Assembly: GCA_011032825.1 (NCBI GenBank)
Contig: JAADJZ010000034.1
Coordinates: 124,001 to 188,000, forward strand
From: Massariosphaeria phaeospora
Taxonomy: Eukaryota; Ascomycota; Dothideomycetes; Pleosporales
Length of the DNA: 64,000 nucleotides
Direction: 5' to 3'
A program made the position numbers and the translations under genes. Below are positions 27,601 through 49,490 of the stretch, in pieces. The number at the start of each line of letters is the position of its first letter. Position 1 is the first letter of the stretch. The notes under the pieces were generated by a model. That model saw nothing but the letters and a program-made list of their open reading frames with translations, was not told the origin of the DNA and did no database searches.

Positions 27601-28011
27601 CGCGCGTATCGGAAGCGCCTTGCCAATACTTCAGATTCGCTCACCTCAGAGCTCACCCGAGAGGTGGAGCGCGAACTCGCACTCACCGCACGAGCGGTTG
27701 GGGAAAAAGCCAAAGGATCAAAGCTTGATGAAAGTGTTATGGTGAAGTTACTGGATCAATATTCTGAGCGACTCGTCAGCATGTTCGACGAGAGAATCGC
27801 CGCTAGCGTGGCAGTCAGAGCTAGGGAGAATAGCGAGAGCGGATTGTCCGCAGGATTGATGTCGCCTGCACTCGACACAGAAGCAGACAAGGAGAAGGAG
27901 AAGGAGAAAGAAGGTGATAGAGGAGCGAATGATCCGATTACGACCAGCCCTGACTTGGTGCTTGCGAGCACTCGTCTCTCGGTAAATGAAGGCTACACCA
28001 TCCCGGAGTGA
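24651..28011 (+). CDS. WD40-repeat protein of the WDR62/MAPKBP1 (MABP1) type
   Basis: Exon 1 is 24651-25238 and exon 2 is 25291-28011; the 52-nt intron (GTATGT...GCCTAG) joins FLAVGE|TGYKPRVLVF. Total is 1,103 aa from the first ATG; an ATG 12 codons on (24687) is an equal candidate. A disordered Ser/Pro-rich N-terminus (1-165) precedes two sets of WD repeats (about 175-800), recognisable from GVRCVAFSPDSQYLAS, HVKVWRIEDG, SISIYEGKDPAYIACASRDRMVQIF and GAVTGILFSRNGMRLVSSSSDRTL. Their order and the GETGYKP block match the animal MABP1/WDR62 family, scaffolds for MAP-kinase signalling and spindle poles. The C-terminus has a Ser/Arg-rich linker and a helical segment at about 920-1040 with an acidic KEKEKEKEGD run. 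Fungal function is not established. Confidence 0.82.
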
Positions 28012-29479
28012 TACATCCTTCTAAACCCGGTAGCATGGACTTTGGATATGAGGCACTTGGCGACAAGGCGTTTACAGCGGGTTATTTTTACGGGGACGTG
28101 GCGCTCGGTTGCTCGGGAATGACGAAGTGTTTTTGGACGGAGAGGGGCACGGGCGTTGGTTCACTCTACGAAGGGATGGATAAGGCAGGCAATTCTTTTT
28201 GGATACCACTTATGTTAATGTTTACGGTAGCGTCTTCTTTCTAGCGAATAGACAAAAAGTCTTATATGAGGTTTTCATCCTGGGCAGATTGTACCGTCGT
28301 CTAAACAAATTGAGGCTCGTCGCAATGAGCTCGCGAAAACCTTTTGATCTGGTATCTTCGTCGTTGTAGGCGGGTTAGGGTGGGGTCTTGGGAAAAGTCG
28401 GACATTAAAATCCCAACCAAACCAACCAACAGGATCAAAAACGGACCGAATTTTTGAACGGATTGACCTAGCTCGTGTGGTACCAACAGTGTTATTCCGG
28501 GTCCTTCCGTCGCATGTGGGAAGGAAGCTGGTACTACCAACGCTTCTACAAGAGAGTTAGATTGAGGCTCACACGGCGCCCATACGCTTCCCAAAGATAC
28601 ATTTCGAGTCCTCTAGATCTTGTATATCAGTATGTTGAAGTCCGTTGGGCTACTGTCGACCTAAGCCCGAGGCCCAGCCGCCGCCATGTGCACATAAGAG
28701 TGCTTGTTCAGTAGTAGGAGGGTTTGCTCGACATCCTTCAAATCAACATAACCCGATCGGAAATTAATGCATGCAGTACGGAATACATATTCGAGAGGCT
28801 CCACAAAACGAAGCACCCACTCAGCTCACGCTGAAAACAAACAAGGCGCTCCGCAGCAAATTTGAGCGTTGCGACAACTTTCTCATCCTCTAGGCCTCTA
28901 AGGGAAAACTCGGCGTCCGATTCTCTTTCTCAAAGACCTTAGTGCCGTTGGAGATTATTACTAGCATACTTGAAGCGACTCGGCAAGCTCTCGCGCTCCT
29001 ACCACCTACATTTTAGAGATGCGAGGCGAGCACTAAAATAAGGTTAAAAAAGTGGTAGCGAGCTTATAGCGAGGTGGTGCCCTATTTGGTTTGAGCGTGA
29101 GCTGAAGAGATGGTTTCGTTATAGAGCGTATTCTCAGAACTATGGTTTGTCAAGATGATTCTTCTTGCCTCTTGTGTCTAGTGGGCTCTGAGAGAGAATA
29201 TACTGATTGCGGGCTTGTTCTTACGAGGAGAACTCAACACCAGGTTCTTCCTCTGGTACTAGGTACCTCGATCGTCGCAGTGAACAACGTCGCTTTTCAC
29301 TGTCCAACCCTCTTCTACTCCTAGTGCAGTTGTAGTCCAACACGGTGTACCATACTCCAACTAAGACGGGAAGTGTGAGCCGGTTCAGCTATGCACATAT
29401 ATAAAGTATCTTTTGTACGCCAGCTTTTCTTTCTTCAATAGTTCTCTCTGCTCTCGAATCCCGCTTCAACCACTTCAAG
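28012..29479. other. Intergenic spacer with repeat relics
   Basis: No intact gene. The part at about 28960-29100 has imperfect inverted segments (CTCCTACCACCT against AAGTGGTAGCGAG and GCGAGGTGGTG) and is likely a decayed repeat. A TATA-like ATATATAAAG at about 29396-29405 lies 75-85 bases before the secreted-protein start. Confidence 0.45.
29130..29168. repeat. Dispersed repeat block, copy 2 (see 17902-17940)
   Basis: TCTCAGAACTATGGTT, T, GTCAAGATGA and TTCT replace the C-containing versions of copy 1. The changes are C to T relative to copy 1, in keeping with decay by transition. Confidence 0.6.
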
Positions 29480-30073
29480 ATGAGACTTCTTACCACTGGA
29501 GGCGTCCTTTTGGCCAGCTTTGTCGCGTCGTCTGTCGCTTTTGTTACTCCCTCAGCCCAAACTCCTTCTCAGGGCGATTCCGACTCTTCGATCTACAAAC
29601 GGGCGGTAAAGGGTGTAATCGCGGATGAATGTGTAAGATCTCTGCTCTGCTCTTGTTACGTTAGAAATAACTTTGTTTCCCCTCGCAGATAGGGTGCATG
29701 TTGGTGTGCATTAATAACCTGCTGTATGAACACGGAGAAATGGAGCCATCATTCGAAAACGGAGACGGAGAAATCGTAACCGTAATGGGAGATGTCCTAA
29801 ACGAAAACGGAGACGTAGAGCTGGATTTTGGCGAGAAGTCGTGCGAATGGGACGCTCCGGGACGGCTTTGGTATTTCCTAGAGTAAGGATGACTCTGAAT
29901 TCCAGGTGCAGTGAAGAGTAACGAAGCCTGCTGACGCTGACAGATGTGCCGAACCATGCGAAGCTAGAGGAAAATGTATGCAAGACAACGGAGAACAGTA
30001 TAGCGAGCCTGAGGGCTACTTGTTACAATTGAAGATGGACGGGTACCTCACGGTGTGGCGAGGACCTGAGTGA
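29480..30073 (+). CDS. Small secreted cysteine-containing protein (effector-like)
   Basis: Exons 29480-29632, 29689-29882 and 29944-30073; introns of 56 and 61 nt with GTAAGA/GTAAGG donors and CGCAG/GACAG acceptors; 158 aa. The N-terminus (MRLLTTGGVLLASFVASSVAF) is a clear signal peptide with cleavage near residue 20. A Lys-Arg at about residues 40-41 (IYKR|AVKG) is a likely Kex2 site that would release a mature chain of about 117 residues. That chain has seven Cys (in DEC, IGC, LVC, KSC, LEC, EPC and GKC), many acidic residues and no known domain. Small size, secretion, pro-peptide and Cys content are the usual marks of fungal effectors or antimicrobial secreted proteins, but no function can be read. 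An odd number of Cys leaves one unpaired. A dead transposon lies 400 bp downstream. Confidence 0.72.
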
Positions 30074-30479
30074 TGATTGATACTCGCGATTCTACTCTTC
30101 TCGTCAACATCCCTCTGAGGTCTACTAGCTAGCAAACCACCCTCTGTATATCAGAATCACACTCGTTTTTCATGCCTGACTTGTACACGCTTTGACTCCA
30201 AAACGCTTAAATGCGTGTCTCTTCAGCGCCGCACTTTTTCTCTGAGTCCAACCGAGGCCCTGGCTCAATACTGAGATCACGGCAAACAGAGAAACATGCG
30301 TTGTCCAATGGATGTGTTAAATTGGCCAGGGATACGAGAGGGTGATATGTCGTGAAGTGAATGGCTTGCAACAAAGGTAGCAAAAGACAAGGCCGGCCGG
30401 GTTTATCTTGGCGCTTACTAAGTATCCCTACAGCGTGGTTTATTAGTCATCTGACAGCCCCACCAGATAACCGACGCGC
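30074..30479. other. Spacer between secreted-protein gene and transposon relic
   Basis: No gene is supported. The left end of the transposon may lie in this interval, but I could not find a terminal inverted repeat pair by eye. Confidence 0.4.
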
Positions 30480-31520
30480 CTCATCGCGTTCAACCAGCTA
30501 TGGCTTCAACACCACGCCAATTGCTTCACAAAACAGTTGGCCACTCTCTAGCTACTGATGTATCTACACGGAAAAGATATAGCACGACTATACTTCGTAT
30601 AGCTGCAAAGCTATACGAGCCTCCTCGCTCTACTCTTGAAGGCGGTCGGCAACGCAAAGAAACCAAAGCTCCTCCCTACTGCCTCCCTACTGAAGAACGA
30701 TATTTTACTCAGTGGGTCTTAGATCGCGATCGACGAGCATTTACACCCCACATCGTTGACGTACGATAAAAGGCAGACGTTCTACTCGCCGCCCGCGACG
30801 CGGACAAAATCCTCCTGTAGACACGCGCTAGGTGTCACGCTTCATGAACAACCAGTCTGAGCTTCAATAAAGTGGAACGGGAATAGAAATCCCGCCAATA
30901 CCGTGCGAAATGCGAAGATCCCGTCAAGGTCAACGCGTGGTTCAAGGCTGTAGAGGAGCTGCGCCAGGCGCATGGGATACGATGAGGACGTGTACAACTT
31001 TGACGAGACTAGGTCTGGGTTTATGATCGGGGTCGCTGCAATGTCAAAGGTGGCCACTAGCTCTGGGCAGACAATTGCGACTTGGGACGACGATTGAATT
31101 CAAGGTCTGGTTGGCATATCCCGCACCAGGCTAGTTGGTACCGCGATGTAATTCTTGAGGGCCACAGCAGCCATACTATGCCTCAATTTGTTTGGTCAAA
31201 TTCTATGCAGAGAACGAGATCAGCACTCACACGTCAGATCTCTTCCAATCGTTGGCTGCTTCTCTCTTTCTAAGAGAATGTACGGACACGAGGTTGGAGA
31301 GCTTACACGCAAAGGGGTTTCTCTTTATCTATGCACATATCCGCACGTTACTTCTCTCGGAGCAGAACATCTAGAGCAGGTTTCAAACGACAGGGCTCAT
31401 CCCATGCAGCTGTAGCTAGCGAAGCAGCAGATCGACAGCATTTTCGCGAATATCTATTGAACGCACCTCAGAGTAATAGTAACGCCCGCAATTCATCTTC
31501 TCTAGAGCTCTAGCCGAGCA
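30480..31520 (+). mobile_element. Degenerate pogo/Fot1-type (Tc1/mariner superfamily) transposon relic
   Basis: Broken translations in the three plus frames follow the transposase in order. At 30500-30769 comes the helix-turn-helix part (RIAAKLYEPPRSTLEGG, then RYFTQWVLDRDRRAF); then a stop at 30768 and KADVLLAARD. At about 30905-30975 comes QYRAKCEDPVKVNAWF. At about 30985-31097 comes the catalytic block EDVYNFDETRSGFMIGV. At about 31146-31180 comes ILEGHSSHTMPQF, where the family normally has an Asp. At about 31255-31400 come CFSLSKRMYGHEVGELTR and SEQNI...SRFQTTGLIP. At least five stops and several frameshifts separate these pieces, so the element cannot make a transposase. It is too decayed to define its ends. 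Confidence 0.75.
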
Positions 31521-32434
31521 GCCGAGCGATTAACCTGTAGCTCTTGATCCGGATAGCTGTGGCGTCGGCTTGAGTACCATGGCAGGATGCTCTACCACTC
31601 TGCACCTTGCCTAGCTCCAGTGATTAGTAGTCCCTGTTTGTCGTGGCAGCCTCGAGGTTCTCCAGATCTGTGCGACGTCAACAGCCCTAGAGCCTTCTGA
31701 TCATGATCGTCACCCCGCAGTAGCAACATCATCATGGCGCAAGCGCAGCAAAGCACCAGTCAAAGACAGAAGACACGCCTCAATCGGCAGCCCATACTGG
31801 CAAAGGATCAGCTCCATACTAACGACAATCGCGCGACTGGTGGGCGGTTCGCCGGACTAATGGGACTTTCTCCATCACAGGGCACGCCAAGGCAGATCGT
31901 AAGTGGCCATTCAAGGGGAGCGAGAGGCGCGGGTCCAGGACAAACGGAATGGCTGCCATCTTCCCTTCTCCCCGCAAGAGAGGCACGAGGGGTAGTAAAC
32001 CGGGGCGGCACACGGCGAGGACCATGCCCGGGCGCGTGGACCCTTCACCTCATAAGAGGGTTCCCCCTCCGTCCGCCGAGCTATGCCGACATCAATTGCC
32101 TCTCCACTCCGCCATCTCCTGTCTCGTGGTTGAACAAGACCTCTAGCATCGCAACGCAACAGTGCTGTCGCGGCTCCACCCCGCCAGGCAGCTGTCTTTC
32201 GACACTACAAGAGGCCCAAATTGAGGCCCTGCGGTAATCAATCGCCGCATCCGACCCCTTTACCCGGATCTTGCGACATAAAGCTACCCAGAATCCATAG
32301 TGCGCTCTCCCAGCAGTTTGACGACTCGTTCGCGCCTCGCACAAGTTCTTTGGTATCGCTGTTCCCAACATCCGAGCGCGCCGAAGCCGCCCTGTTCTTC
32401 CCCTCGACGGCTGCACTCACGGCGCTTCCGCACC
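31521..32434. other. Intergenic region and acetyl-CoA synthetase promoter
   Basis: It contains the promoter and leader of the ACS gene. A 167-codon frame at 31734-32237 has low-complexity character and no recognisable domain, so I do not call it. Confidence 0.45.
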
Positions 32435-34854
32435 ATGTCTGAGGGCGATGTGAAGCCAGCGACAGTGGTGCCCGAGGCCCACCAGGTCGACACCTTCCAC
32501 GTCCCCAAGGCCTTCTACGAGTAAGCTTGTTTTTGCATTGCATCATTTCCAAGACAATGCGCAGTCCCAAGTCGCCCGAGGTCGCGCACGGCAGAGCGGG
32601 GTGACCCCGCCATTTGCCCGGCGTCATCGCGATCACCTCTCCCACCAGCACCAGATGGGGAAATGTGGCTAACGAATGACTCGTAGCAAGCACCCGCACA
32701 CAAAACCGCATCTCAACGGCTTGGAACACTACCAGGAGCTGTACAAGGAGTCGATCCAGGACCCGCACAAGTTCTGGGGCCGCCTGGCGCGCGAGCTGCT
32801 CACGTGGGAGCGCGATTTCCAGACCGTTCACGCTGGCTCCTTCGAACATGGCGACAACGCGTGGTTCGTCGAAGGCAGGCTGAATGCCAGCTACAACTGC
32901 GTGGATCGCCATGCCTTCAAGGACCCGAACAGGCCCGCTATCATCTACGAGGCTGACGAGGATGGGGATGGCCGCACTATCACCTATGGCGAGCTCCTCC
33001 GTCAAGTGTCCAAGCTTGCATACACGCTCAAAGAGATGGGCGTGAAGAAGGGCGACACTGTTGCCATCTACCTGCCTATGATTCCCGAGGCACTAGTCTC
33101 CCTCCTGGCTTGCGCACGTATCGGCGCTGTACACTCGGTGGTCTTCGCCGGGTTTTCATCAGACTCCCTCCGTGACCGCATCATTGATGCTGAGTCCAAG
33201 GTCGTCATCACCACAGACGAGGGCAAGCGCGGTGGAAAGCTCATCGGCACCAAGAAGATTGTCGATGAAGCCCTCAAGCAATGTCCTGATGTATCTCACT
33301 GTCTTGTGTACAAGCGCACTGGTGCTGACGTTCCATGGACGAAGGGCCGTGACTGGTGGTGGCACGAGGAGGTCGAGAAATACCCTAACTATATTGCGCC
33401 AGAGTCCATGAATTCCGAGGATCCTCTCTTCTTGCTCTATACCTCTGGTTCGACAGGCAAGCCCAAGGGGGTTATGCATACTACCGGTGGTTATCTCCTT
33501 GGAGCAGCCGCGACTGGAAAGTACGTATTTGATATCCACGACAAGGACACCTTCTTCTGTGGTGGCGATGTAGGTTGGATCACTGGCCACACGTATGTCG
33601 TATACGCACCACTCGTCCTTGGTGTGACTACCGTCGTCTTCGAGGGAACTCCCGCGTATCCGAATTTCTCACGCTACTGGGACATTGTCGACAAGTACAA
33701 CGTCAGTCAGTTTTACGTTGCGCCTACTGCTCTTCGATTACTCAAGCGCGCTGGTGACCAGCACGTTAAGGCCAAGATGAAGAACCTCAGGATCCTGGGA
33801 TCTGTTGGTGAGCCGATCGCTGCAGAGGTATGGAAGTGGTACTTCGAGGTTGTTGGCAAAGAAGAGGCACACGTTGTGGACGTAAGTAATTCGAACAAGG
33901 ATGCAGCGGAATATAGACTAAAGTGTACAGACATACTGGCAAACAGAGACGGGTTCTCATGTTATCACTCCTCTCGGCGGTATTACACCCACAAAGCCCG
34001 GCTCAGCCTCTCTCCCATTCTTTGGTATCGAGCCGGCCATCATTGACCCCGTCTCGGGAGAGGAGATCCACGGAAACAATGTCGAGGGTGTGCTTGCATT
34101 CAAGCAGCCGTGGCCTAGTATGGCTCGCACTGTTTGGGGTGCCCACAAACGGTACATGGACACATACCTGAATGTTTACAAGGGACTATACGTGAGTGAA
34201 GAACATGACGGTAATGGATGTCTTACTGATACTCGCAGTTCACCGGAGACGGGGCTGCGCGTGACCATGAGGGGTATTACTGGATTCGTGGACGCGTGGA
34301 TGACGTTGTCAACGTGTCTGGACACCGACTATCGACAGCAGAAATCGAAGCAGCGCTCATCGAACACCGTACGTCAGCTCCTCCGTTGTGGATTGCATAG
34401 CCTACTAACCCCGCTCTTTAGATTCCGTTGCAGAAGCGGCCGTCGTCGGAATTAGCGACGAGTTGACCGGCCAAGCAGTGAATGCATTCGTGGCGTTGAA
34501 AGATGGCACCGAAGTGACAGACCAAGTCAAGAAGGACTTGACGCTGCAAGTGCGCAAGTCGATTGGACCATTTGCGGCACCAAAGGCCATTCATGTGGTT
34601 CCAGACTTGCCAAAGACGCGGTCCGGCAAGATTATGCGACGCATTCTGCGCAAGATCTTGGCTGGCGAAGAAGACCAACTGGGCGACATCACAACGGTAA
34701 GCCGAATTTTCTCTGCTACTTGTCCGTCTTGGTGGTGTCAATGACGCGTCGTTGTGCGTGTCAACAATGGAAGCTGACGAATTGTGGATAGCTCTCGGAT
34801 CCGTCGGTAGTGGAGAAGATTATCGAGGTGGTACACTCGGCCAAGAAGAAGTAA
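32435..34854 (+). CDS. facA: Acetyl-CoA synthetase
   Basis: Exons 32435-32520, 32687-33881, 33931-34191, 34239-34368, 34422-34696 and 34792-34854 give 669 aa, the usual length for fungal FacA/Acs1. The enzyme makes acetyl-CoA from acetate, ATP and CoA through acetyl-AMP, in the cytosol and nucleus; it is needed for growth on acetate and for histone acetylation. Visible motifs: [11 protein letters not shown] (P-loop-like A3 block), [24 protein letters not shown] spanning the second junction, [23 protein letters not shown] and the hinge, and [11 protein letters not shown] with the catalytic, acetylation-regulated Lys. Introns 2-4 are 47-53 nt; intron 1 is 166 nt and intron 5 is 95 nt. The stop at 34852 follows SAKKK. 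No frame problem was found. Confidence 0.95.
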
Positions 34855-35809
34855 GCCACGCCAAAATCGGCTTTCAGCGAGTGGCGGGAGGAACATTTGA
34901 AGAGATGGGACGCTGGGGAACGCGTAAGGCCAAGGCGCTACGGGAGAGGTGCCTTTGACCGTGCCGGCGGTGGGGCAGCGGATAACCGCGTGCGGGCATG
35001 TCCATCAGTGAGATATCGGCGCGCCTATGTATTCTGTCCAGCAAGTTGTTTATAGTAACTATGTCCCAAATGGGGGGCTCTGCTGCTGTTTGTGAATCCA
35101 CGCGCGCGCACTCAGGCTGTTGGGCGGCACAGCGGCTGCAGTGACATGGAGGCAGGCAACGTCTCGGCCAGCGGGCGCTGGCAAAGCAGTCTACAGGCGC
35201 TGGGCGGTCGGGGATGGGCAGGGCTGCACTACCTGCAGGCCGCAGCGGACAGGAAGCAGGATGGTGTTCCGGACGATTGCCGTTTTATTGGCGTTTGAGA
35301 TGCAGGCAGCAGGTCATCCGGACCTGGGTAACGAGAGATGATTAAGGTACTGGGTAGCGAGAGATAACATGCGTCTAACGTACGTGGGTTAGCGTTGCGC
35401 GCTAAGGGACTGCTCCTGTCTGCCAAGCAGGCGAAACCAGGCAAATCTCTAGCCGTGCGCTACTCTCGGCCGAGAGAAGATAGACTAGTATGTATATACT
35501 AGATTACGGTAACAGGTATCAGTCCGGATGATATGGCGCCTCTTTGAGATGCCCGCACTCGCAGGTTGCCCAGTCAGTGAAAGGACCCCGGTCGAGCCAA
35601 GGCGGGCTAGTCGCTCACGCTCGGGGGGCTGACGACGTCTTTGGGGCACATCTATCGTTCACCACTCGGCGCCTCTCATCACTTGCACATAACCAAACAC
35701 TCTCTCCAAGATCCGCACCCTCATGTCGCCCGCTGTGCTCGTGCGATAATCACCGCTCGCTCATCCGCAACTCCTGAGCGTCTCCTCGACGGAGCGTTCG
35801 CCACCCGCC
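34855..35809. other. Intergenic region with ADAM-protease promoter
   Basis: I see no supportable gene. The pyrimidine-rich stretch at about 35690-35800 is probably the promoter and leader of the next gene. Confidence 0.45.
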
Positions 35810-38371
35810 ATGCTAATAGCGCGGGCTGTCACAGCCGCTGTCACTCTCGCACTCGCCACAGTCACCACCGCCGCATCCACGGCGCGGAATCCCTTGAAGA
35901 CCGTCGGACTGGCAAAGAACCCGTCCATCCTCACAGCAAACCACCGCGTGCATGCCCTCTCAACCTTCGATGTCGCCTTTGACTTCTCCGGCGCCCGCAT
36001 CCGGCTCAGCCTCGAGCCAAACCACGACATCTTCGTCGAGGGCGCAACAATACAGTACCTCCGCGCAGACGGCAGCCTCTCTAGACAGGAGCCGATCGAC
36101 CGGCTTCAGCACAAGGTCTACAAAGGCACGGCCTGGTTGAAGAGGGGGAACCGATGGGATAAGGTTGGTTGGGCCCGCATTGACATCCGCCGGGACGGTA
36201 TGGACCCGCTGTTCGAGGGAACCTTTACCGTCGACCATGACCACCATCACGTGCAACTCTCGTCGCATTACCAGCAGACGCGCCACGAGCTAGACCCGGA
36301 TCTCGAAACGCGCCCCGATGAAGTCATGGTAGTTTTCAGAGACTCGGATACGGCTGCCGACGACGAGCATTCGGAACTAAAGAAGCGATCTGGCGGACTA
36401 GCGTGCGGGAGCGATCAACTAGGGTTCAACAAGCAGGATGACCACCCTGTGTATGTTAGCATGCGACCGAGGGGCGACAAGCTGTTTTCCACGCCCTACT
36501 CGGCCTTGTTGGGGAAGCGCCTGATCGACGGCACGCCCGGTGGAGGCAATGGTGCTGGTGTCAACTTGGTCCAGACCATTGGCAACACGCGAGGCTGTCC
36601 CTCTACCCGCAAAGTTGCGCTGGTGGGCGTTGCTACAGACTGCACGTACACGCGCTCGTTCAATACGTCGAGCGGTGACCCTAAAGACCTGGCCCGCGAC
36701 AGTATCATCGGCCAAATGAATAAGGCATCTGAACTATTCGAAAGCTCCTTCAACATATCGCTCGGTCTGGCTAATTTGATCGTCACCGAACCCAACTGTC
36801 CTACAATGCCCCAGCAAGCCACCCCCTGGAATCAGGATTGCAAAGATAACCTCAACATTACGGGGCGCCTAAACCTCTTCTCGCAGTGGAGGGGTCAGCA
36901 GGCTGATCAAAATTCACACTGGACTCTGCTTACCAAATGCAACACCCAATCCGCCGTCGGTCTGGCGTGGCTAGGCCAAGCATGTACGTCGGGCTCCCAG
37001 GGCCCAGGCTCGTCCGACGGCAGCGCGGAATCCGTGGCTGGGGCCAACGTGGTTGTGCGGACCTCGACCGAATGGCAGGTCATCGCGTAAGTGCCTCTTC
37101 CCCTACGTGACTCTACATGCACTCACTAGCATAGACATGAAACCGGCCATACGTATGGTGCTGTCCACGACTGCACACAAACAGAATGTTCGAACCAAAA
37201 TATGCTTAGTGCCCAGCAATGCTGCCCGCTCAGTGGTGATACCTGTGATGCCGGCGAGCGCTTTATCATGAACCCTTCTACCGCCCAAGGTATCACCCTC
37301 TTCTCAGCCTGTTCTATCGGCAATATCTGCTCGGCTTTGGGACGCAACAGTGTCAAGTCTTCCTGTCTCAGCAACAATCGCGGCGTCACTACTGTTTCCG
37401 GTCAGAGGTGTGGCAACGGAATTGTCGAAGGCGACGAACAGTGTGATTGTGGCGGCACACAAGGCTGTGGCGATAACCAGTGCTGCGACCCTACCACCTG
37501 TCGATTTAGGGAAACTGCCGTCTGTGACGATTCGAATGAGGACTGCTGTAATAATTGCCAGTTCGCGTCGGCAAGTATTGTCTGCCGTCCGGGGAGCCAA
37601 TGTGACCCAGAGGAGCGGTGCACAGGGACCACACCCTACTGTCCGGATGACAAAACTGAACCTGACGGTTCAGACTGCGGTAATGGGCTCAAATGCGCAA
37701 GCGGACAGTGCACATCGCGAGACCAGCAGTGCAAGACTGTCATGGGTACCTACACCCAAGGCAACGACACATTTGCTTGCGACAACAGAAACTGTATGCT
37801 GAGTTGCGCGAGTCCAGAGTTTGGCCGAGACGTCTGTTACGGCCTGCAGCAAAACTTCCTTGATGGCACTTCCTGTGCTGGAGGTGGCACCTGTCAGAAT
37901 GTAAGTGTCAATGGTATTGGGTCGGTCTTGTGACTAACATATTTGCAGGGTCAATGTGCTGGAGCATCAGTAGGCAACGAAGTCAAGAAGTGGATCATGG
38001 ATAACAAACCCATCGTAATCGGTGTCGCCGCTGGCGTTGGCGGTCTGCTTATGCTCTGCATTGTAGGCTGTTGTTGGCGCAGCTACAAGCGCAGGAAGAC
38101 GAGAAAGGTATATGCTGCCAATCACGCGGCAGTTCGTGGGCCTCCGCCTCCGCCTCCACGCCAACCCTACTACGGCGGCCACGACCGACCAAGAAGAGAT
38201 GGGAGAAGAAGCGCACCCCCTATTCCACATCCTAACACCCGCGGTGCGTCGGCAGTGACCGAGAATCGCAGTCGAGCGTTCTCCCCGAATCAATGGCAAC
38301 CGCAGACTGGACACGATGTCCCAGTGCCACCGCCGATGTACCAGCGTAGTTCAAGCGTGCGCTACGCATAG
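35810..38371 (+). CDS. ADAM-type metalloprotease with disintegrin domain and membrane anchor
   Basis: Exons 35810-37086, 37135-37900 and 37949-38371; 821 aa; introns of 48 nt. A signal peptide (residues 1 to about 22) is followed by a pro-domain (to about 195) ending in a dibasic KKR site, then a reprolysin-type catalytic domain. The zinc motif HETGHTYGAVHDC (His427, Glu428, His431, His437) is created across the first exon junction. A Cys-rich disintegrin region (about 500-600; CGNGIVEGDEQCDCG, CRPGSQCDPEERC) and a further Cys-rich part follow. One membrane helix at about 702-724 (IVIGVAAGVGGLLMLCIVGCC) is followed by a basic, Pro-rich cytoplasmic tail with PPPPPPR. This is the usual fungal ADM-A/ADM-B plan: a surface sheddase of unknown targets. 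All catalytic residues are intact. Confidence 0.9.
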
Positions 38372-39756
38372 TGCCGGGATTGATACGTCGCGTTTCTGTT
38401 TTGTACTACTGTTCAACTTTTCAAATTACTCCATCGCTGAGCGACCGTCTTGCATTTATCTTTTTGGAACGGCTTGGGAAACACACTCTTTTGCATTGAG
38501 TGTATCACGAAAAGCACTTTTGACGATCATTTTGCTTCAGCGGAAATATGCTGGGCCGGAGTTTATTTGTCGAATTATCTTGGGAAAGAATCTCGTAGCA
38601 TTTGGGACACGGCGTCTTGAGAAGCGGGAAGCGATTGCTTCCGCTTTTGCGTTCCGCTTTGCATTTTGGTGGATTGATTCCCCGTTGGGTTGGTTGGACT
38701 GGCTGGACTGGACGGAACCAGGTTCGGTTGCATTTCTGGTATTGATTGATATTGTTGCGTAGTACATATATCCCCGGTAGATATTTAGCGATTGGGGACC
38801 AGCAGTCAGGCTGTTGAACAGGCAGTGGCGCGGTATATAGTGGTTTGGATATGATTCAACCGGCTGTGCATTACTGTGTCTTCTCTCATGCAGTCGTCGA
38901 TATGACTGGGAGCTCGTCTCTCTATTGTCATTCGTTGTTCTAGCGCACCAAGGCGCTCTCACATTTGCATACACACATTAAATATGAATGATTGCTGTGC
39001 TCACACATCTATTGTCAACTGCCTCGCTTAGCGTGTCCCTAGTGGAGAATCCGTATCGATAACTTAAGGCCACCGAAGCTTGATCGACCCTGCAGCATCA
39101 TCAATTTCACAGCCTCGTCACACCTTTCCCCTTCAGTCGACCCTACATACGATCAACCCACCGTTTCTCTACTCCGTACCTCCCTCGTAATTCTCCAACC
39201 GGCGCTGCTAAGACAGCCTTGCGAATAAAGGATTCTCCCTCCAACATCCTCTTAGAACCGACCCAGCACGCCTAATAACATCCAGCAAACAAACCCCAAC
39301 CGCAGCCCGCCCCTCGCCCTTCGCCCTTCGCTACCTAGTCCCCATCCCTCGTGTTTGTTCGCGCACCCACCAAGCAGCAACAATAAGCTCAGCGCCCTGC
39401 AGGTTGCAACCAATATAAGACACGCTTGATGCCTAACGCGGGCTAGCAGGGGACGCCGCATTTTCCATTTGATGCTTCTTTACGACTTTACGGCGTCTGT
39501 GCGGGGTGCGGGGGCCAAACGGAGTGCTAGCCTTGGGCGCAGGCTGCGCAGCTGAGAGAGGGAGGCTGTGGGCTGACATGGATGACTACCGCGTGGGAGC
39601 GACGGACTTTTCAGCTAGGGTTGGGGCGCTGGCGTGAGTTAAGGGTGCGTGGGTGCGGCGCGTTTTGGTTTCTTCTGTTCTCTTTCTTCGATCTTCTTCG
39701 TGGATTTGAGTGCGTGGTTTGAGTGTGTTGAAAGTACTTCTAGTTTATTGGGCATT
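38372..39756. other. Intergenic spacer
   Basis: It is the 3' flank of the ADAM gene and the promoter of the next gene. The 145-codon minus-strand frame at 38537-38974 has no protein-like features. A TGGACTGGCTGGACTGGA short repeat lies near 38695. Confidence 0.4.
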
Positions 39757-41138
39757 ATGGATATGGGGAACATGTTACAACAACGCCAAGAGGATGAGTG
39801 CGTGTGGCCATATTGTCCTTCGAGCCCAGGTGAATCCACTGGCGTACCTTCAAGATTGCCAGGACTCGCGACTGAAGTCGGCGACACAACCACCACGACA
39901 GACGACAACGGCTCTGGACCTGGACCTTCATCAAAGCCCCCGCCCGCACAAGTTTCTACTGCGTTAACCACCGCCACCCACGCCGCTCCTACCATCCACC
40001 CATCCGAGAACACCGTAGTCGTTCTGTCCTCTACTCAAGCCGGAAATGCTGCCGCCACAGCGGCGCCCTCGCAGGCCGCGTCTACGTCCGGAGGCCTAGG
40101 AAGCGTGAGCGGAGGTGCCGTGGTAGGAATCGCAATTGGAACAGCGCTCGCCGGTGCAGCCATCGCATTCGTCGCCGCATTTCTCGTCTTCAGGAGGAGG
40201 AACCGCAACACGCGACTCGCAGCCACGTCGTACGGCTCGACCCCCGATCTCATCACGCTGGCGAAAGGCGGGCAGACGAACTACGTCTCCGTCTCGCAAG
40301 CCCCAGTCCCCGCACCCATAGTCGCACCAACACCCAGACAGCACCAAGCCCTCGACCCAGCAGCCTCCTCGTTCCTGCCCCCCGCGGCCGACGACCACAG
40401 CGTCGCGGCCAGAGTCTCGGCCCTGTTCTCCGCCGTCCACCAGCACGTCGACTCGTTCTACCGCGACGTGCACGCGAGCATCACACCGAGCATGGAAAGC
40501 GATCTGGCGCGGTTCGGCGCGAGCGGCGGCATGGCCGAGCTGCTGCGGACTGCGTCGAGTCCGACGGTCGCGATCAAACATGCGCTGGTGGACTTTGTGC
40601 TGGATCTCGGCGGCGACGCGTTCGTGCCCGCTGAGGTGAAGGGGTTGAAGGAGGAGGCGTTTGTGGACTCGAGTGGTGAGTGCCTTTCTATCTCACTTAC
40701 TACCTACCCACCTACCTACTCGCCTTTACTTTCGTACCATGTAGCATGCACCAGCTAACTAGAACATACGCAGACCTCACCGCCCCCTACCTCCTCTACC
40801 GCCGCCTAGCCGTCCATCTTTACCTCTGCCAAACCCCTTCCCACCCCGCCTCCACGCTTTCCTCGATCCGCGAAGCCGCCGAGCACTTCGCCCTGACCTT
40901 CTTCCCCTGGGCCAACCCCAGCATCTCGGACCACGAGAAAGACGAAGACCTCGTGCACCTGATAACCAGCGCGCTCGATCTAAGTCTGTGGTTGCGAGGC
41001 CAGCCGTTTCTGTACGAGTTCGTGTGGGAGGAGGTTGGGCGGCGGGGGATCGTGGTTAAGCCTGGGTTTGCGAGGTGGGTGGAGGGGAGTGAGAGCGGTA
41101 GGAAGATGTTGCTTGAAGGGAGTGTTGAGGGGATATGA
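39757..41138 (+). CDS. Single-pass membrane protein with mucin-like ectodomain
   Basis: Exon 1 is 39757-40675 and exon 2 is 40774-41138; the 98-nt intron (GTGAGT...TACGCAG) splits an Asp codon (VDSS|DLTAPYLLYRR); 427 aa. I use the ATG at 39757 (MDMGNMLQQRQ) rather than the upstream one at 39649, whose added 36 residues would create an unlikely N-terminus. Residues 1-118 are rich in Thr, Ser, Pro and Ala and contain CVWPYC. A membrane helix at about 120-145 (AVVGIAIGTALAGAAIAFVAAFLVF) is followed by RRRNR, so the N-terminus is probably outside. The cytoplasmic part (about 280 residues) is helical and conserved-looking (SALFSAVHQHVDSFYRDVHASI). The layout resembles fungal cell-wall sensor-like proteins, but the N-terminus lacks an ordinary signal peptide. 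Function not assigned. Confidence 0.68.
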
Positions 41139-41396: not shown

Positions 41397-44300
41397 TTAC
41401 CATCCTCCCCCTCGTGGCTGCGGTTCCGCTTCCTCTCCTGTGTCATCCGTGTATGAATGCTGTGTGCTTTCATCCTCGTCCTGCTGCACACTAGGACGAG
41501 GTATGTCCTCCTTCTTGGGTACACCATGTTGAGCATTCAAAGCTACGCTGCTCTTATTTCCATCTTTCTTTGCCTTGGTGTGATGACTCCGTTCGTGGTC
41601 GTTCTTTTCCTTTGAGGTACTGAATCTTACATCTCTGCAATCTTCGTGGGGACAGCGGTGCTGCTCCTGAATGTGTCTATTCAACTCGAACTTACGCCTG
41701 AACGTTCTCGTAGTACAGCCTTCGGTGCATTCAAAGGGAGCTGGGATATGCTGAGACAATTGAGCTGGAAAATTGACGTTGTCGAAAAGAGGTTGTAAAT
41801 CAGGCGTCGGGTCCTCGGGTGAACCTGGCCACATCGTAGGAGTGGGTTCGTGCTGAAAACTTGGATTTGGCGTGACTCGTAGGACATCCGGTGTCAGCTC
41901 AGAGGAGCCGTGTGTTTCTTGAATCTCCAGGCTTTCTTTGTGAGCACTGTTTTCCAGTCTCTGTAGCCAAACATTTTCGCGCGGGACGGGAGCAATTTCT
42001 AGCGCCCCGACTTCTCTCTCATCGACCGTAGACCTTTCCTCTAGCTCCGATAACCTCTTTCTAATATCTACAAGGGTCTGTTCCATGCTCTGCATGCCCA
42101 TGTGCTCAATTTGTTCTTCTACGCGGCCTCGAACCTGCGTGATTTCCGCCTCATCCTCCTTAGCAGAGTCCTCTGCAAGCTGCTGCTCTGCTTGTTCCCG
42201 TCGTTCCGCGTGTATCTCATTGTAGGTGCAATCATGGGTCAGTCTCTTACAGGTTCCACATGTGGGCCTTGAACCATCGCAGCGCAACTTCCTCTCTCGA
42301 CATGAATCGCAAGCTTCATTTATCCTCTTCGTCTCATCACGATTAACGCCAAGATCAGTCTTGTCATCGTCGTGGGTGCCATCCTGCAATAGTTCGTCCG
42401 GTATCGTCGAGGCCTCGCTGGTATGAACCGCAACCTTAACTCCATGTTTCTGGTATACGTGTTTCAGAAGAGCATCTTTTCGTTTATACTCTTTTCTACA
42501 GATCTCACATGCATATAAACGGAAAGGCTCGTGCTGGTACTTAGTATGCCTTCTCAGGTTGCCTTTTGCGTGTGTTCCTGTGAAGTGCCGGTCACACTGG
42601 AGACACTGCAGCGGAAGGGACCCCACATTAGGATTCTGTCCTTCAGTGGGCACGTCTTGATCGTCTATTAAGTATGAGGACGGGGTAGGTGCTGGGGCGG
42701 CACTTCGAAAGAATCGAGATAACTGTGGGGGGGATTGGGCCCCGAACCTGTTCCAATTTTTCAAAGAGACGGACTCGAATATCTCCTTCTCCTCTTGCTG
42801 CTGGTCCCGTTGCTGTTGCTGTTGCTGTATCTGTTGCTGTTCCCGTTGTAGTTGCAGTTGTGCTTGCTGTGCTTGCTGTGCTTGCTGAGCTTGAGCCTCC
42901 GCACTCCTTTGCTGTTGTTGTTGCCGGATAGCTTGGTGTTGTTGTTGCAATTGCTGACGTATGTGGGGATGTTGCTCCAATTGTCGTTGCTGAAGCATGT
43001 GGGGAGGCATGGAAGGATTCATGGGCTGGATTTCGCTCGCGGTAGGCGGATCCGTCACAACATGGAGACTGGGATAACTCTCATCATCGCTGGCTCCGAA
43101 TTCGTACTCTGCGAAGGTAGGAGAAGTAGGAAAAAAACCTCCCGATTGATACAGGTTGACAGGGGTTGCTGGCCTGTCCTCATGACTGGGACGATGAGGG
43201 TTGTCATCTGTCGTGGATGGAGCACCGGTCGATGGGAGTTCCATTTCCGTTGAAACAACGCTTTTCCCCGGGTTGTGTTTTCCCTTTCCTTTCCAGTTTC
43301 GATTAGACCCGGTGTAGCTGCAATCAATGCCATCCGCCCTACATCTTGAACACCGAACACCGCCGTCACATTTCAAATGTCTGGCTCGACATGAGAAGCA
43401 AGCGACTGCTCGTGATGCCCCTCCAGTTGCAATACCAGAGCCACCATCGATTATTTGTCGAGGAGCTGGCCGGCTGTCTAGGTGCGCTACAGATACTGGA
43501 GAAGATGGAGACTCTAAAGTTTCCGGTACCAAGCATTGTTCATGGTCCTCAGCGACCGCCTCTGGTTCAAGGTGTTGTGAAAGCTCAGGATGAAAGGTAA
43601 ACCTGCGGCCCACCGCGTCCTTGAACTTGATAGGGGGCTCAGGTGCGTCTAACGGCTTCAATTTGGCGGCTTCCTCCTCGACAGCCTTCTTTGCCTTTTC
43701 GAGCTCCTCCGCGGCAGCTTTAGCTTCTGCCAGTGCTCTACCCTGTGCCTCTGCGATCGTTTCGGCTTTTTCGAAGCTCCTCTGTGGGACCTTGGCGGCC
43801 TGGGCGGCATTCGCTTCTTTTTTTCGCTGCGCTTCGCGTTCACGGCGTTGATTCATGATCATCTGTGGCGTCCGTATGCCAGAACGATCTTGCTGCGTGG
43901 CAGAGCCGGGATGAATACTTCTGGATACGTCCGATGTGCTATGGAAGGTCACCAGTGGTTGCGATTGTTGTACGAAAGTCTCTTCGTCTAGAGAATCCTT
44001 AGTTCGTTTATTTTGCGGGTCATCTGCTTGCTGCTGCTGCTGTTGCCGTTGCCGGCCATCCAGGTGCGCCGCAGACACTGGAGACTTTGAGTTTTCCGAA
44101 AACAACTGAAACGAATCAGTAAGCCCTGGTTGCAGCGAAGGACTGACGGGCGTCTGATTCGATTTGGTGATTCTTGAATCCTCAGCCCACGCGTTATGGT
44201 GACGATCCACGTGCTCGCGCAAATAGTGAGGAGAGGAGAAGCGTTTGGTACATCCTGGAGCTTCGCAGTGAAACTCCAGCCATCCTTCCTCATTCTCATT

Positions 44301-47228
44301 TATCAAACCTTCTTCCTCTTCCTTTTCATTTGCGTCTAGGAGTTTATTCACATTCCCGTTCATCTGAATACCAAAATGTGATGCACTACCCGTCGCGCTT
44401 CTCATACTGTCTCCCCATAAGAGACTTTCCGTCTTCCAGATATGAATCATTGACGATGTGGGAGGGAGTCTGGAGGTGAACCAATATCCTGGCTGACCCT
44501 TGTACATTCCAGCGCCCTGACCCGGGCCGAAAGATGCATCTATGCCTAAAAATTCATGTATGCTGGCGCTGATCGCTTCTCTGGCTATACCCTCCGCTGG
44601 AACAAACCATTGCGTCATTGGAGGCGATGTTATTGTCACGGCGGGGTCATCGCCTGGGGTAAACCACCGGTTTGCTAGCGATGCTTTGTTCGGGCCAGCA
44701 ACTTCCTGATCGTCTACTTCAAAGACAGATTTTGAGTCCGAGACTTGACTGCTGATCTTCTGTGGAAACTGGGGCCCTACTCCTGGGTCGTCTAATCGAT
44801 AATCCATGTCCTCCTCTTCGTCTGCTGTATCGAGGAAGTCCCCGGCCTTAAATTGGTGCGCACTTGATGTTTTCGTTCGATTTGATCGTCGCAGCCCAGC
44901 TGAACCTCCAACTGCTTCTCTAGTGACGCCTGGAGAAGAAACCTCACCTTTGGCATGGTGTCGTGCATTCGTTTCACAGTCCATCGAGCAGTATGTACGA
45001 CCGACACTAGTCTTTTTGTTGAATAATTCTCGAGGTGTAATGGAATAACGCAACTGGTCGTCCGTGGTACCAGATTGGTCCGGGTTTGATCCCTGGCGGA
45101 GTGCTAGCATCTCTTGAGGCTGGGACTCCGGTTGCGGAGAAAGCCCACGACCACACCACATGCACCGGAAGAGCAGCGTGTCGGCTGTCGCTGAAATTCT
45201 TTCGCGATGATTCGTCTTGGTATTGTCGTGGTTACTGTCTAAGGTACGCCGAGTCGATCGAGGCTCGCATTGCAATCCTTTGGCAGTGCACCGGGAGCAA
45301 GATGGAACCTAAGGTTATCAACAAGAAGCGGTTTAACAGCCAGGAATTCATGAACATACCGTCATGTCGCACTTCGTTTTTGCTTTAGCGCAGATTGTAC
45401 AAGCGATAGCCCGTTGTCGACCAAGGGGTGTAAATTTTCCTGAAGAAAACGATCTTGCAGAGTTATTTAGAGTAGGTTTAGACTCAGGTTCAGACCCAGG
45501 ACCAGGAGACATCGGAGTAGGATCTAACTGTTCCGTGTAGAGCTTGTCAGATTGTTCCAGGATTTCATGGGTGTTGAGGTCCTCATCTCGGATACTATCA
45601 GAAGTGGCTTCAGACTCAGCCTCAGAATTGGCTTCGGAATCAATTCCTCGAGGAAGGGCAGCAAGCGCAATTTCTTCCATATGTCTAGCGAAATGGATGA
45701 GGGTCGCACTCTTGCCGGTACCAGTAGGTTCTAAACATAGCGCGCACTCCCTGCTCTGCCACTCTGGGCCGAAATAGTGGTCAAGCTCTAGATGATTGCT
45801 CCATATCTGCCGGTCGGAGAAAGGTGTGGCACTGAAAGAACAACCGGGATGAAAACACGTATACGGCCGGAGGTCTTTGAACAGATGTTTCCTGGAGAAG
45901 TTTTAGTTATTCGCCCACGAATGGTAGATGTAGCACTTTACCTCCATTCACGATTTGTGACTGCTCTCACTTGCGTACCACAAGCGCAGCACTCAAATGG
46001 TTTCCCGTCTCTAGCTTCCGATGGAAGAGGAGGGACCTGGATTTGTTTACCTCCAGACATGCTTGACATAAACGATATCACTGTTTCAGCGTAGGCAGAC
46101 TGCGCAGGCAAGGATGTACCCAGTCCTGAATCCACAAAATCCGAACCCGCCAGACGTGACTTTGTAGCTAACGATTCCGTTTGCTCCTCTGCTTTTTCTG
46201 TATGAAGTCTCAAATTGGTGTACCTCTCCATTTGCATGCGCTGATAGCGATCCCAGTTGGCTTTTCCAAGACATTCTACTAGGGCTGAACTAGCTTTCGG
46301 ATATTTGGATAGGATGAGATCGGCATAGTAGTCAAAAGCAGCGCGCTTCTCTAGTCGTAGGGTAGACGGCTCTTCGCGTGGGCCCGCATCTGTTGCCGGG
46401 CACTCGAGTGCGCTACTCAAATCTACTAATAGTTGAGTATAAGTCTTCATCTCTTCGACAATCTCAGTGCTATTGCTCCGACCGGACTCGTCTTCTGACA
46501 TTTCAGATTCGCTACCGCTATCGCTGGTGTTTTCGTCAAGCCCAGCCAGAATGCATCGTGCTTGTTCACGTAGAACTTCGAGATCATTGGTTTCCACTAG
46601 GGCGCGTTGCGCCTCAGTAGAATAGGCCAATATAACCATACTTAGTCCTGAATAGGTCAGTCTCCGTTTGTTCTAGCATGAAGATCAAACCTACTTTTTA
46701 TCACTCGACTCATCGCGTTGATAGTTGATAGAGTACGAGAGTAGAGGTCTCTAGACCGTTCTAAGACGCGATCTAATTTCCCGTCTAACGCACTGTGTCC
46801 ATCTGCCCAGAGCTTGAGTGTGGCGCAACTTCGACGTAGCATATTCTTATCCCTTGGGGAGAGGGACTGCGTGTGCGTAATCTCGCGCAAGAGAGCGGAG
46901 AAAAGATCGAGAGAACTCCGGAGAAGTCGTGCGATAATACCAGCGTCTTCGAGGTAGACTTCCGAGGTGGCTGTATCCCGCCATACATCAATCATCATCA
47001 TGGGGTCATGTTGATTTGATGGCAGCAGTGCAGGGCCTAACCCGGCGGCCATTGCCGTGCGGTCTTCGTTGTTCGCTGAAGGCGTCAGTATGGTCCAAAA
47101 CACGCATACCAAAGAACGCAGATACCCAAAGATGTCGAGAATGAAGAGTTGTGGTTTGCAAAGCCCCGAGGATCGTCGTTACAGCCTTGTGGGTTCGAGT
47201 GACCACTAGAGCCACTGACTTCCGCCAT
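41397..47228 (-). CDS. Giant multi-zinc-finger regulator: three Zn(II)2Cys6 clusters plus C2H2 fingers
   Basis: Five exons: 47228-47126, 47075-46695, 46647-45942, 45891-45360 and 45308-41397; about 1,877 aa. All four introns are 47-51 nt with good donors, branch sites and acceptors. Exons 4 and 5 join to complete a Zn2Cys6 cluster (Cys561, 564, 571, 578, 581 and 588), which proves the join. Order: helical N-terminus (1-160); acidic Ser stretch (about 200); FECCACG...YTCFHPGCSF C2H2-like array (about 377-450); cluster 1 (561-588); possible extra Cys pair set (623-685); C2H2 at about 921-945; coiled coil (about 1085-1125); cluster 2 (1211-1237, ACFSCRARHLKC); Gln-rich region (about 1345-1415); paired C2H2 (1476-1529); cluster 3 (1574-1601, ACDSCRERKLRC); leucine-rich helix; C-terminal C2H2 pair (1768-1817). 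Probably a nuclear DNA-binding regulator. No middle homology region of ordinary Zn2Cys6 activators is evident. Confidence 0.85.
42750..42960 (-). repeat. CAG/CAA-type trinucleotide-rich tract encoding a poly-Gln region
   Basis: The plus strand shows runs of TTGCTG, GTTGTTG and CTTGCTGTG. On the coding strand they give blocks such as QQQQQQ, QAQQAQQAQ and REQQQIQQQQ. Such tracts vary in length between strains. Confidence 0.7.
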
Positions 47229-47480
47229 GGTAGGGTATCAACGAACCGGTAATATCACAAAGGGTCGCATTCAATGTCAGACGTCTAGTGGGAGATCGCG
47301 GAAAAGGTTGTGCGCAGTTCCTGGCAGCGGAATACGAAGCTTGAGTCCTAAGCTGGGCGATACGATGCGGGGGCAGTGCATGCGGCTGACGCGAGGCGCA
47401 AGCTATCGCAGGCATCACAACCGTATATCATTGACGCGATTTCCTGGGCTTGAGACTTTTGGTTACCGCCCATCTTGATA
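47229..47480. promoter_or_regulatory. Short shared promoter between zinc regulator and DUF7580 gene
   Basis: Only 252 bp separate the two divergent start codons (47228 on minus, 47481 on plus), so both genes must share promoter DNA. It includes CGG-type half sites such as CCGGTAAT and GCGGGGG, but I cannot define an operator. Confidence 0.5.
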
Positions 47481-49490
47481 ATGTCTGGGCTCGAGGTCCC
47501 TAGTTTGGTCTTCGGTGTCCTCCCTCTTGTGATCGAAGCCGTGAAGGCCTACTCCACTGTCTCAGCTAGCTTTCACACATTCAGGCACTACTCCAAAGAG
47601 GTCAAGACGATACACAGGCAACTCAAAGTCCATCATGGCATATTTCTCAACGAATGCCGACTGCTGCTCCGTCTTGTCGAGGACGAGAAGGGCGTCGAGG
47701 AGATGCTTGACGACACGAACGACCAGCGGTGGACTAGCAAAAAGCTGAATGACAAATTGAACGGGTTTCTGAAGGAAAGTTTCGAGCTGTGTTTGAGTAT
47801 CATTGAAGCATCGAAAGAAACGGTCGATGAGATGGATGAGGAGATGTCAAAGTTCGATGTTTTGACGGCGCAGAAAGACAAGGTCCGTGGACGTGCACCA
47901 CACTAGATCAACCAAACCCTCTTGTCTCCACCTTATCGCTAACACCACAATCAAGGATGAATCCATCAAAGCTACTATCCGACGTTTGCGCAACGCCGTA
48001 AGAATTACTTTTGACAAGTCCAAGTACGAGCAGAGCCTGGCAAATCTTCGAGATCGCAATTTTGAACTCTCCACGCTACGCGCACACATCGGTGCCTTTC
48101 AGCCGAAGACATGCTCAGACCTCTCCTGTGTAGGAGGTAAAGCTTTGCCATCCCGCATTGATGCGATAAAAAGCACTTCACAAAAGCTCCACGAAGCTCT
48201 GGCTGGAGCGTGGTGTTGCGGCGACCTCAAGCACGGCGGCCATTATGCCAAATTGTGTCTGGATGCTGAAGTGCAGAATGAAGTGCGATTAGATCTTGCC
48301 ATATCATGCCAGGAAACTTGCCAGACGCCCAATGAAAGGTAAAATTCCAAGAGAACACAGATAATGTTCCCATCTAACCGGGTTGCAGATCGATACCTGA
48401 ACCCCCAATCTGGCTCTATGTGCAGTCTGTCAGTATCGAGACGACCGCATATGTGGATGTCACGCATACTGCCACTCCGAACTCGAAGAGGAAAGCCATG
48501 ATCGACGAACCCGCGATTGCTACTGAGGCGCAAAAGAATAATACTTCTTCTGGCCTAGCACAGCTTGTTGCATGCAAGAAGAAGAAGAAACCAAGAAAGC
48601 AAGTCCGATTCTCTACTCCGGATCACGAAGATACTGTTGCATATATCGGGAAATCCATAGACGAGGTCTCTGTTGCGATTGCAACAACTGTTGCACAACA
48701 AACGACCTCTTCGATTGACCTTTGCAAAACGAAGAATATATGCCATTACCTGAAGCAGAACCTCCAAATCTGCGGCAAATCCCTCAACAGGCATTGTGTC
48801 GGCTATCTGGAGTCGCCCATGATGTACAGACATATTTTCTACCTCCAGGAGAAAGAGATCCCCACGAATCTGAAACAGAAGGATCCTGCACAAACGTTAA
48901 TCTTCTCGATTTGCGATGTTTTGGGGCAAGGAGTAGACGATACGATGACTGTAGTCGATCAGCTGAAGCTTGCTCATAAGGCTGCACTGGCCACTCTGCA
49001 ATTTAATGGTACACCTTGGCTTTCGCAACGATGGCGTCTTAGGGATTTGAGCTACTTCGGGACTTCGATTATCTTTAACGAAGAGTCACTCAAGACACTG
49101 CATCTCAGTTCGCAAATCGCCTCCACTACCATTCCCGCCATGACCGCTATGGAAGGCGTTGAAGGCGCTGTGGAGGAAGTCTCTGAAGAGGAGTACTTCG
49201 GAATCAACAACACCACACTCTTTTTCCTTGGCGTAGCACTCCTCGAGATAGCCCACTGGAAGTCGCTCGAAAACCTAAAACTGCCCAAGGACCCGAACGA
49301 AATATTAACGGCTCGACGGCTTGCTTCACGGCCCACTCCACTAGGACCCAAGTACCAGGAGATTGCTCGAAAATGTCTTCAGTGCAATTTTGGCTTCGGG
49401 ACAGATCTCAATAAGAAGGAGCTGCAAGCTGCCGTTTACGGAGATGTGGTCTGTCAACTCGAGCGGATGATCGAAAGCTTGTCCATCTGA
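47481..49490 (+). CDS. DUF7580 protein (fungal, degenerate kinase-like C-terminus)
   Basis: Exons 47481-47882, 47956-48338 and 48389-49490; introns of 73 nt (GTCCGT, GCTAAC, TCAAG) and 50 nt (GTAAAA, TTGCAG); 628 aa. The N-terminus (MSGLEVPSLVFGVLPLVIEAVKAY) is the usual hydrophobic start of DUF7580 proteins, reminiscent of the HeLo/SesA-type N-terminal helices seen in fungal immune-like proteins. Residues about 30-135 are amphipathic helices with LLLRLVEDEKG. The C-terminal third ends with LFFLGVALLEIAHWKSLE and GPKYQEIARKCLQCNFGFG, the family's degenerate kinase-like end. No catalytic Lys/Asp motif of protein kinases can be seen, so activity is unlikely. A basic run KKKKKPRKQVRF near the middle could be a nuclear localisation signal. 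Function unknown. Confidence 0.78.

Follow-up and report, generated by a model that had tools for sequence, protein, structure and literature searches.

We consider it likely that the gene at positions 41397-47228 of the window (by which we mean the whole 64,000-nucleotide stretch of DNA analysed) belongs to a family with a conserved head and a tail rebuilt by in-frame insertion of coding pieces from other genes, its captured zinc clusters being intact and its product nuclear. In the mechanism that we propose, the N-terminal head, made up of a helical region and C2H2-like fingers, would stay in place, and the C-terminal tail would be rebuilt as short (~50-200 bp) copies of other coding genes are inserted in frame. 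The tail of the window gene would have acquired Zn2Cys6 cores from three different genes, along with a portion of a ubiquitin-like domain and one more piece, apparently at different times. Insertion was probably DNA-templated, and would have run from donor to tail in a stepwise order. Because the captured clusters are intact, the protein is most likely nuclear and DNA- or chromatin-associated, that is, a DNA- or chromatin-binding protein whose tail is rapidly exchanged.

The gene model comprises five exons on the minus strand (47228-41397), which join to give 1877 codons plus a stop, and hence a protein of 1877 aa. The exons occupy 47228-47126, 47075-46695, 46647-45942, 45891-45360 and 45308-41397, the fifth being a single 1303-codon open frame that holds most of the tail. 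All four introns are GT-AG: intron 1 (47076..47125, 50 nt), intron 2 (46648..46694, 47 nt), intron 3 (45892..45941, 50 nt, within the zinc-finger region of the head) and intron 4 (45309..45359, 51 nt, within cluster 1). An alternative donor site for intron 2 was rejected since it breaks the frame. As the 1303-codon frame spans half of cluster 1 and the whole of clusters 2 and 3, no splice is required anywhere downstream of the midpoint of cluster 1, and the single gene proposed in the initial annotation is upheld by both this frame and the five-exon join. Its neighbour, at 47454-49490 (plus strand), is transcribed away from it and has a 370-aa frame matching DUF7580 (41.7 bits, cut-off 27); upstream of that frame are short open frames that match nothing in Pfam and are maybe earlier exons. 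Elsewhere in the same 64 kb lies a gene of the heterokaryon-incompatibility type, a 607-codon frame at 6593-8416 (plus strand) in which the HET domain PF06985 scores 50.8 bits against a cut-off of 22.5.

The three Zn2Cys6 clusters reported earlier lie where they had been placed, at residues 561-588, 1211-1237 and 1574-1601. The PF00172 profile finds three stretches on the joined protein (72.5 bits), not fewer, and separate 39-aa pieces carrying clusters 1, 2 and 3 each exceed the Pfam cut-off of 21 (36.0, 35.8 and 43.3 bits). The Zn2Cys6 consensus consists of six cysteines in the usual spacing, and the spacings here, 2,6,6,2,6 in clusters 1 and 3 and 2,6,5,2,6 in cluster 2, together with these scores place all three in PF00172. 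The Gln-rich tract is also present, at about residues 1345-1413 (42792..42998, minus strand). The multiple C2H2 fingers fared less well: C2H2-type patterns occur at residues 409, 446, 581, 922, 1476, 1508, 1768 and 1793 (446 and 581 being loose), but no C2H2 model reached its gathering score in a Pfam scan of the exon-5 frame or of the joined protein. The best scores were 19.0 of 27 for B129_C2H2-zf and 15.7 of 27 for zf-C2H2_4 on the joined protein, and 23.3 of 27 for zf-C2H2_4 on the exon-5 frame. The C2H2-like fingers of the tail, all on the minus strand, include one at residues 922-945 (44196..44267), a pattern match alone; two at residues 1476-1529 (42444..42605), which are 41-47% identical, at the protein level only, to finger pairs at C7:725k and C7:730k, C-numbers denoting contigs of the fungus's own 42-Mb genome; and a C-terminal pair at about residues 1768-1816 (41583..41729), 42% identical to a stretch at C34:331k, with a single short and weak DNA match (67 nt, 72%). 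Fungal_trans (PF04082) is absent from the joined protein at E<=1, which sets it apart from canonical Zn2Cys6 factors. A second multi-cluster candidate in the genome was noted on contig C45, where two PF00172 matches (1998665-1998763 and 1998782-1998892) lie 18 bases apart in one 347-codon open frame.

Comparison of the 4024 bases of tail DNA with the fungus's own genome gave ten matches: one to itself, five coding, and four joining the Gln-rich tract to C22, which are of low complexity and were not counted as capture. The five coding matches, 100-200 bp long and on five other contigs, have 73-89% DNA identity (E from 8e-52 to 9e-17). The reading frame of the donor, a term we use for the nearest outside gene, is kept in all five, and the local alignments stop inside the five stretches even when given about 1.5 kb of flanking donor sequence. 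Fragments with DNA identity make up 731 of the 4024 tail bases, the remainder having no traced source. All five lie on the minus strand. Fragment A (45215..45414), with cluster 1 and its intron, matches C5:944636-944833 at 73% DNA identity, in a frame with no Pfam match other than the cluster. Fragment B (43790..43892) matches C14:670393-670492 at 80% over 103 columns, its donor being a 732-codon open frame without a Pfam match. Fragment C (43592..43748) encodes a helix and the first part of a ubiquitin-like (ULD_2) domain and matches C23:2254249-2254405 at 89% over 157 nt; some 25 of the 85 ULD_2 profile positions are present in the window gene, and the rest of the domain lies just beyond in the donor. 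The idea that fragment C ends at a donor exon end was dropped, as the donor frame runs about 26 bases further before a likely intron. Fragment D (43262..43406), with cluster 2, matches C33:81965-82110 at 77% over 146 columns, and fragment E (42212..42337), with cluster 3, matches C7:611130-611249 at 84% over 126 columns. The donor region on C33 has Zn_clus and Fungal_trans in adjoining frames and that on C7 has both in nearby frames, as in ordinary factors, which would make donor to tail the natural direction. A further stretch, residues 805-873 (44412..44618, minus strand), resembles at the protein level, with no DNA match, both a stretch at C16:479k, presumably RfeG-like, and the tail of the relative P0018 (35%).

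Each cluster has its own closest counterpart outside the gene. Identity to an outside gene is 23-26 of 28 residues per cluster, to a different gene each time (26 of 28 for cluster 1 and the C5 gene), and in protein searches the best outside gene scored well above the next, at 45.7 vs 31.1 bits for cluster 1, 67.7 vs 31.7 for cluster 2 and 57.6 vs 35.4 for cluster 3, the last figure being the next cluster-type match. Tandem duplication of one cluster was rejected, the three being only 9-13 of 28 identical to one another. The separate gene on C5 has an intron (49 nt, against 51 nt in cluster 1) that agrees with the one in cluster 1 in codon boundary and phase, so that the splice within this cluster, as first drawn, is backed by homology. 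The common position further suggests that fragment A arrived as DNA or unspliced RNA. A relative from Periconia has two tail clusters of the cluster 1 type, 69 and 74% identical to it, and this element may therefore be older than the other fragments. The initial annotation had called for homologues with the same domain order, and none was found among the scored proteins, which in these searches are the candidates that share most words with the query: with the full protein ten of 7985 reached E<=0.001, the best coverage being 28%, and with the tail by itself one of 7987 did, at a coverage of 3%. As each cluster is nearest, also in DNA, to a different gene and no scored homologue has this order, an inherited three-cluster architecture is not supported by the sequence comparisons.

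The fragments also differ in how far they have diverged. Nei-Gojobori dS, which rests on 18-52 codons per fragment and on a nearest paralogue that may differ from the true donor, is lowest in cluster 3 and the ULD piece (0.28-0.29), rises to 0.67 in cluster 2 and 1.3 in fragment B, and in cluster 1 is 1.5 or saturated; this spread (0.28 to >1.5) suggests stepwise capture. Pairwise dN/dS is 0.05-0.33 where defined, a range that takes in the donor's branch. All 18 cluster cysteines are retained. A simple neutral estimate puts the chance of keeping the six cysteines at 0.11 for cluster 3, 0.007 for cluster 2 and 0.00004 for cluster 1, and that of keeping all 18 at 3e-8; from these estimates the clusters are probably held by selection, cluster 3 alone not being telling.

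Capture does not appear to be peculiar to the window gene. Its head matches eight further places in the genome, and both of the two searched by DNA, on C15 and C50, carry fragments of the captured type. The C15 paralogue (locus positions 837-5958) has ARID, GYF and SH3 domains, and three non-self DNA matches, all in the donor frame, including an SH3-WW gene (for the SH3 domain) and a Tcp11 gene. The C50 paralogue (C50:933494-936805) has four, the best a piece of 131 bp that is 95% identical to C14:470454-470584; two of the four are clearly in the donor frame and one is too short to tell. Across the three genes the donor frame is kept in 10 of 12 fragments, and in the other two it is not determinable. 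On C50 two pieces that come from separate parts of C49 lie end to end with a single base in common, a junction of the kind that template switching in repair might leave. The accessible part of one published study (PMC9779921) discusses templated insertions and describes insertions as rare in yeast. Two control loci, a 3.6 kb ATPase-like frame and a 3.1 kb locus with a Zn2Cys6 match, gave self matches only, although clean controls number just these two. A 20-kb control (window 20001-40000) is weak, with 39 of 132 candidates scored, and all of its 59 rows fell on one dispersed repeat. That repeat, at window 28793-29163 (plus strand), is present on many contigs and has inverted arms (28821-28847 and 29079-29105) that are 85% complementary, and looks like a short inverted-repeat (MITE-like) element.

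These data bear on the possibility that the tail is merely permissive and disordered, with insertions tolerated rather than selected and the clusters left as passive remnants. That most tail bases have no traced source would fit such a tail, as would the partial ULD domain and the C50 tail frame, which has no Pfam match. The C50 pieces match no recognised domain either, and together with the partial fragment C they mean that at least some of the captured pieces cannot be working domains. We nevertheless think this reading unlikely, since the 18 cysteines have been kept even though cluster 1 stands at a dS of 1.5 or more, a frame of 1303 codons has stayed open, and the donor frame is so regularly preserved wherever it can be determined.

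The conserved part of the protein, the head, spans residues 1-477 (45651..47228, minus strand; exons 1-3 and the start of exon 4) and holds the helical region and sets of C2H2-like fingers. It is 40-52% identical to the heads of 12 relatives over 84-98% of its length, and this whole-head homology places the window protein in the family. Searching with the window protein gave ten relatives at E<=0.001 among the 7985 scored candidates, the best five covering 22-24% of the query, and a search from the head of the relative P0005 gave 30 rows, P0005 itself among them. Pairwise comparison took in the window protein and the 12 relatives, P0015 being left out as it lacks the end-of-head motif. Lophiotrema nucula, Periconia digitata and Dothidotthia symphoricarpi, all Pleosporales, are among the sources of the 12, and the remaining names we likewise take to be Pleosporales. 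For the heads, all 78 pairs that these 13 proteins form can be aligned, with a coverage of 70-100% and identities in the longest segment of 35-71% except for two P. nodorum rows at 100%. The finger-like Cys/His columns are invariant or nearly so in 23 aligned homologues, an alignment that leaves the window protein outside. Most full-length homologues carry PF26082, presumably an AcuF-type C2H2 family, in the precomputed annotation of homologues alone; no protein scanned with the local Pfam library yielded it, and NCBIfam gave no useful match for three homologues. In the tree the window head groups with Pleosporales heads and a long-branched paralogue on C48 (93/91, not starred and without a resolved inner order), and the C15 and C5 paralogues of the head fall elsewhere. 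This grouping suggests that the fungus of the window itself belongs to the Pleosporales. Judged from the predicted structures of two homologues, P0016 and P0018, the head would consist of a helical region and a finger region. The Foldseek rows listed for P0016, EVH1 and similar small beta-barrels, are matches to its tail and not its head; for P0018 Foldseek found no match at E<=0.001, and VIA gave only a middling Z for helical bundles, a level at which the head may belong to any family, those of HeLo or NLR coiled-coil death domains included.

The tails of the same proteins behave quite differently. That of the window protein, 1,400 residues, has no full match, and of the 78 pairs of tails 39 have no significant match and 37 a coverage of at most 33%. 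Higher coverage was seen in two pairs only, 84% between the P. nodorum rows and 95% between proteins of two Ascochyta species. Pfam finds Myb, homeobox, GATA, KilA-N, PHD, TFIIB, La, RRM, EVH1, SH3, WW and HET domains in relatives' tails. EVH1 stands alone in P0013 and P0019, and is joined by two Zn_clus stretches in P0003, by homeobox, Zn_clus and a sub-threshold PHD in P0002, by DUF7896 in P0005, by Myb in P0016 and by La in P0017. The tail of P0001 has Myb, SH3 and two Zn_clus stretches, that of P0007 Zn_clus, that of P0018 GATA, that of P0020 PHD, and that of P0026 ULD and WW; P0014 and P0015 have nothing above the cut-off. Three proteins that carry just the end of the head have KilA-N, Myb and homeobox (P0031), GATA, KilA-N and Myb (P0032), and Zn_clus and TFIIB (P0033). 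In P0006, from Chaetomium fimeti, one annotated protein unites the family head with RRM and HET, a possible link to fungal self/non-self recognition.

Variation may reach below the level of species. Two P. nodorum records have heads that are identical over 471 residues and remain 97% identical up to residue 1101, past which they diverge: 71 residues of one are unmatched, identity in a Zn_clus block falls to 57%, further unmatched stretches amount to about 80 residues in one record and 160 in the other, and identity at the end is 78%. P0008, a third record, agrees with the first (89% over 1417 columns). The records would be either alleles or recent duplicates, and they suggest that tails are polymorphic within species. 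A more ambitious and distinctly tentative extension, which we think doubtful at present, is that this is a dedicated diversification locus of fungi, its tail continually rewritten from anywhere in the genome, in frame and from DNA templates, with nuclear or DNA-binding domains preferred, repertoires that differ inside species, and products that possibly serve as bait-like sensors or compete with the donor regulators.

Its three intact clusters and several finger-like motifs make it probable that the tail binds DNA. At the DNA level, likeness to the donors stops about 17, 20 and 6 residues past the last cysteine of clusters 1, 2 and 3, so at most part of the donor linker was taken and perhaps single half-sites are bound. 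From the general biochemistry of Zn2Cys6 proteins, dimer recognition of spaced CGG pairs would not be expected, at least for cluster 3, where the similarity ends after 6 residues. The protein may touch several half-sites, or compete with the donor factors, and it could serve as a composite regulator, as a competitor of its donors or as a decoy or bait. Composite-site recognition is possible in itself, and the initial annotation had suggested that the three clusters could recognise composite or distant sites; on that reading the protein would be an ordinary large multi-domain activator whose clusters read such sites jointly. The intact clusters, the Gln-rich tract and the solved chains nearest cluster 3, which are GAL4-type clusters (LAC9, AlcR, GAL4, CYP1/HAP1), are in keeping with such an activator. 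We regard it as rather improbable, as no scored homologue has this order, Fungal_trans is lacking, and the clusters differ in their nearest relatives and divergences.

The range of domains gathered in relatives' tails, often nuclear, invites comparison with decoy-type sensors, in which the tail would show copies of nuclear proteins attacked by parasites, selfish elements or incompatible partners and the head would signal. The union of the head with RRM and HET in P0006 would suit a sensor, as would the two P. nodorum rows, whose identical heads precede differing tails, the diverged Zn_clus block included. Such a role is in our view improbable for the window protein, which has no NACHT, NB-ARC or known death domain and whose head found no convincing structural match through the P0018 model, and the attacker is purely hypothetical. 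An assembly or gene-model artefact fusing several genes is very improbable, for although the model is predicted from genomic sequence, a single 1303-codon open frame runs through half of cluster 1 and all of clusters 2 and 3, tail fragments of this type recur in paralogues on two other contigs, and annotated proteins of other species also join the head to varied domains.

Recurrent in-frame rebuilding of the tail, the reading that we prefer, is of wider interest. The usual evidence for domain shuffling comes from architectures of ancient origin; in this family a single genome still holds candidate donors and lets the edges, frames and relative divergences of the pieces be read in three members or more. 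The origin of new domain combinations, a question of long standing, thereby becomes testable, as does the idea that certain genes are favoured as acceptors, and if tails are polymorphic within species, selection on them becomes directly measurable. The gene may illustrate the way in which fungi put together nuclear proteins that change fast. Capture of gene fragments is a known phenomenon, as are chimeric genes and integrated decoys; among the literature matches listed we found nothing on this family, on a fungal head family that repeatedly captures coding pieces in frame, or on such three-cluster proteins.

With GAL4-type Zn2Cys6 factors (PF00172) the window protein has in common its cluster cores and cysteine spacing, and genes of this kind occupy the donor regions of clusters 2 and 3; unlike them it has three clusters with separate nearest relatives, none of them N-terminal, no Fungal_trans, and an unrelated conserved head. 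It resembles fungal proteins with PF26082 in the head module and its zinc-finger columns and differs in that tail content varies widely between genera. Pack-MULEs and CACTA elements also capture gene fragments stepwise into chimeras. The same is described for Helitrons, in the part of the source available (PMC3288121), where short pieces of other genes are collected stepwise into one chimera. In contrast to these three kinds of capture, the pieces in the window gene retain the donor frame and their cysteines, and the gene that holds them belongs to a conserved family. The integrated decoys of plant NLRs and those proposed for Sordariales NLRs, as far as the accessible text goes (PMC12258605), are alike in that domains copied from the own genome are fused to a conserved core. 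They differ in their nucleotide-binding domain: the scan of the joined protein gave five families at E<=1, and neither NACHT nor NB-ARC was one of them. The pieces here are, moreover, sometimes partial, and signalling would be conjectural. The mosaic VSG genes of trypanosomes likewise form new gene variants as mosaics; those mosaics draw on copies of one gene family, whereas the donors of the window gene are unrelated genes.
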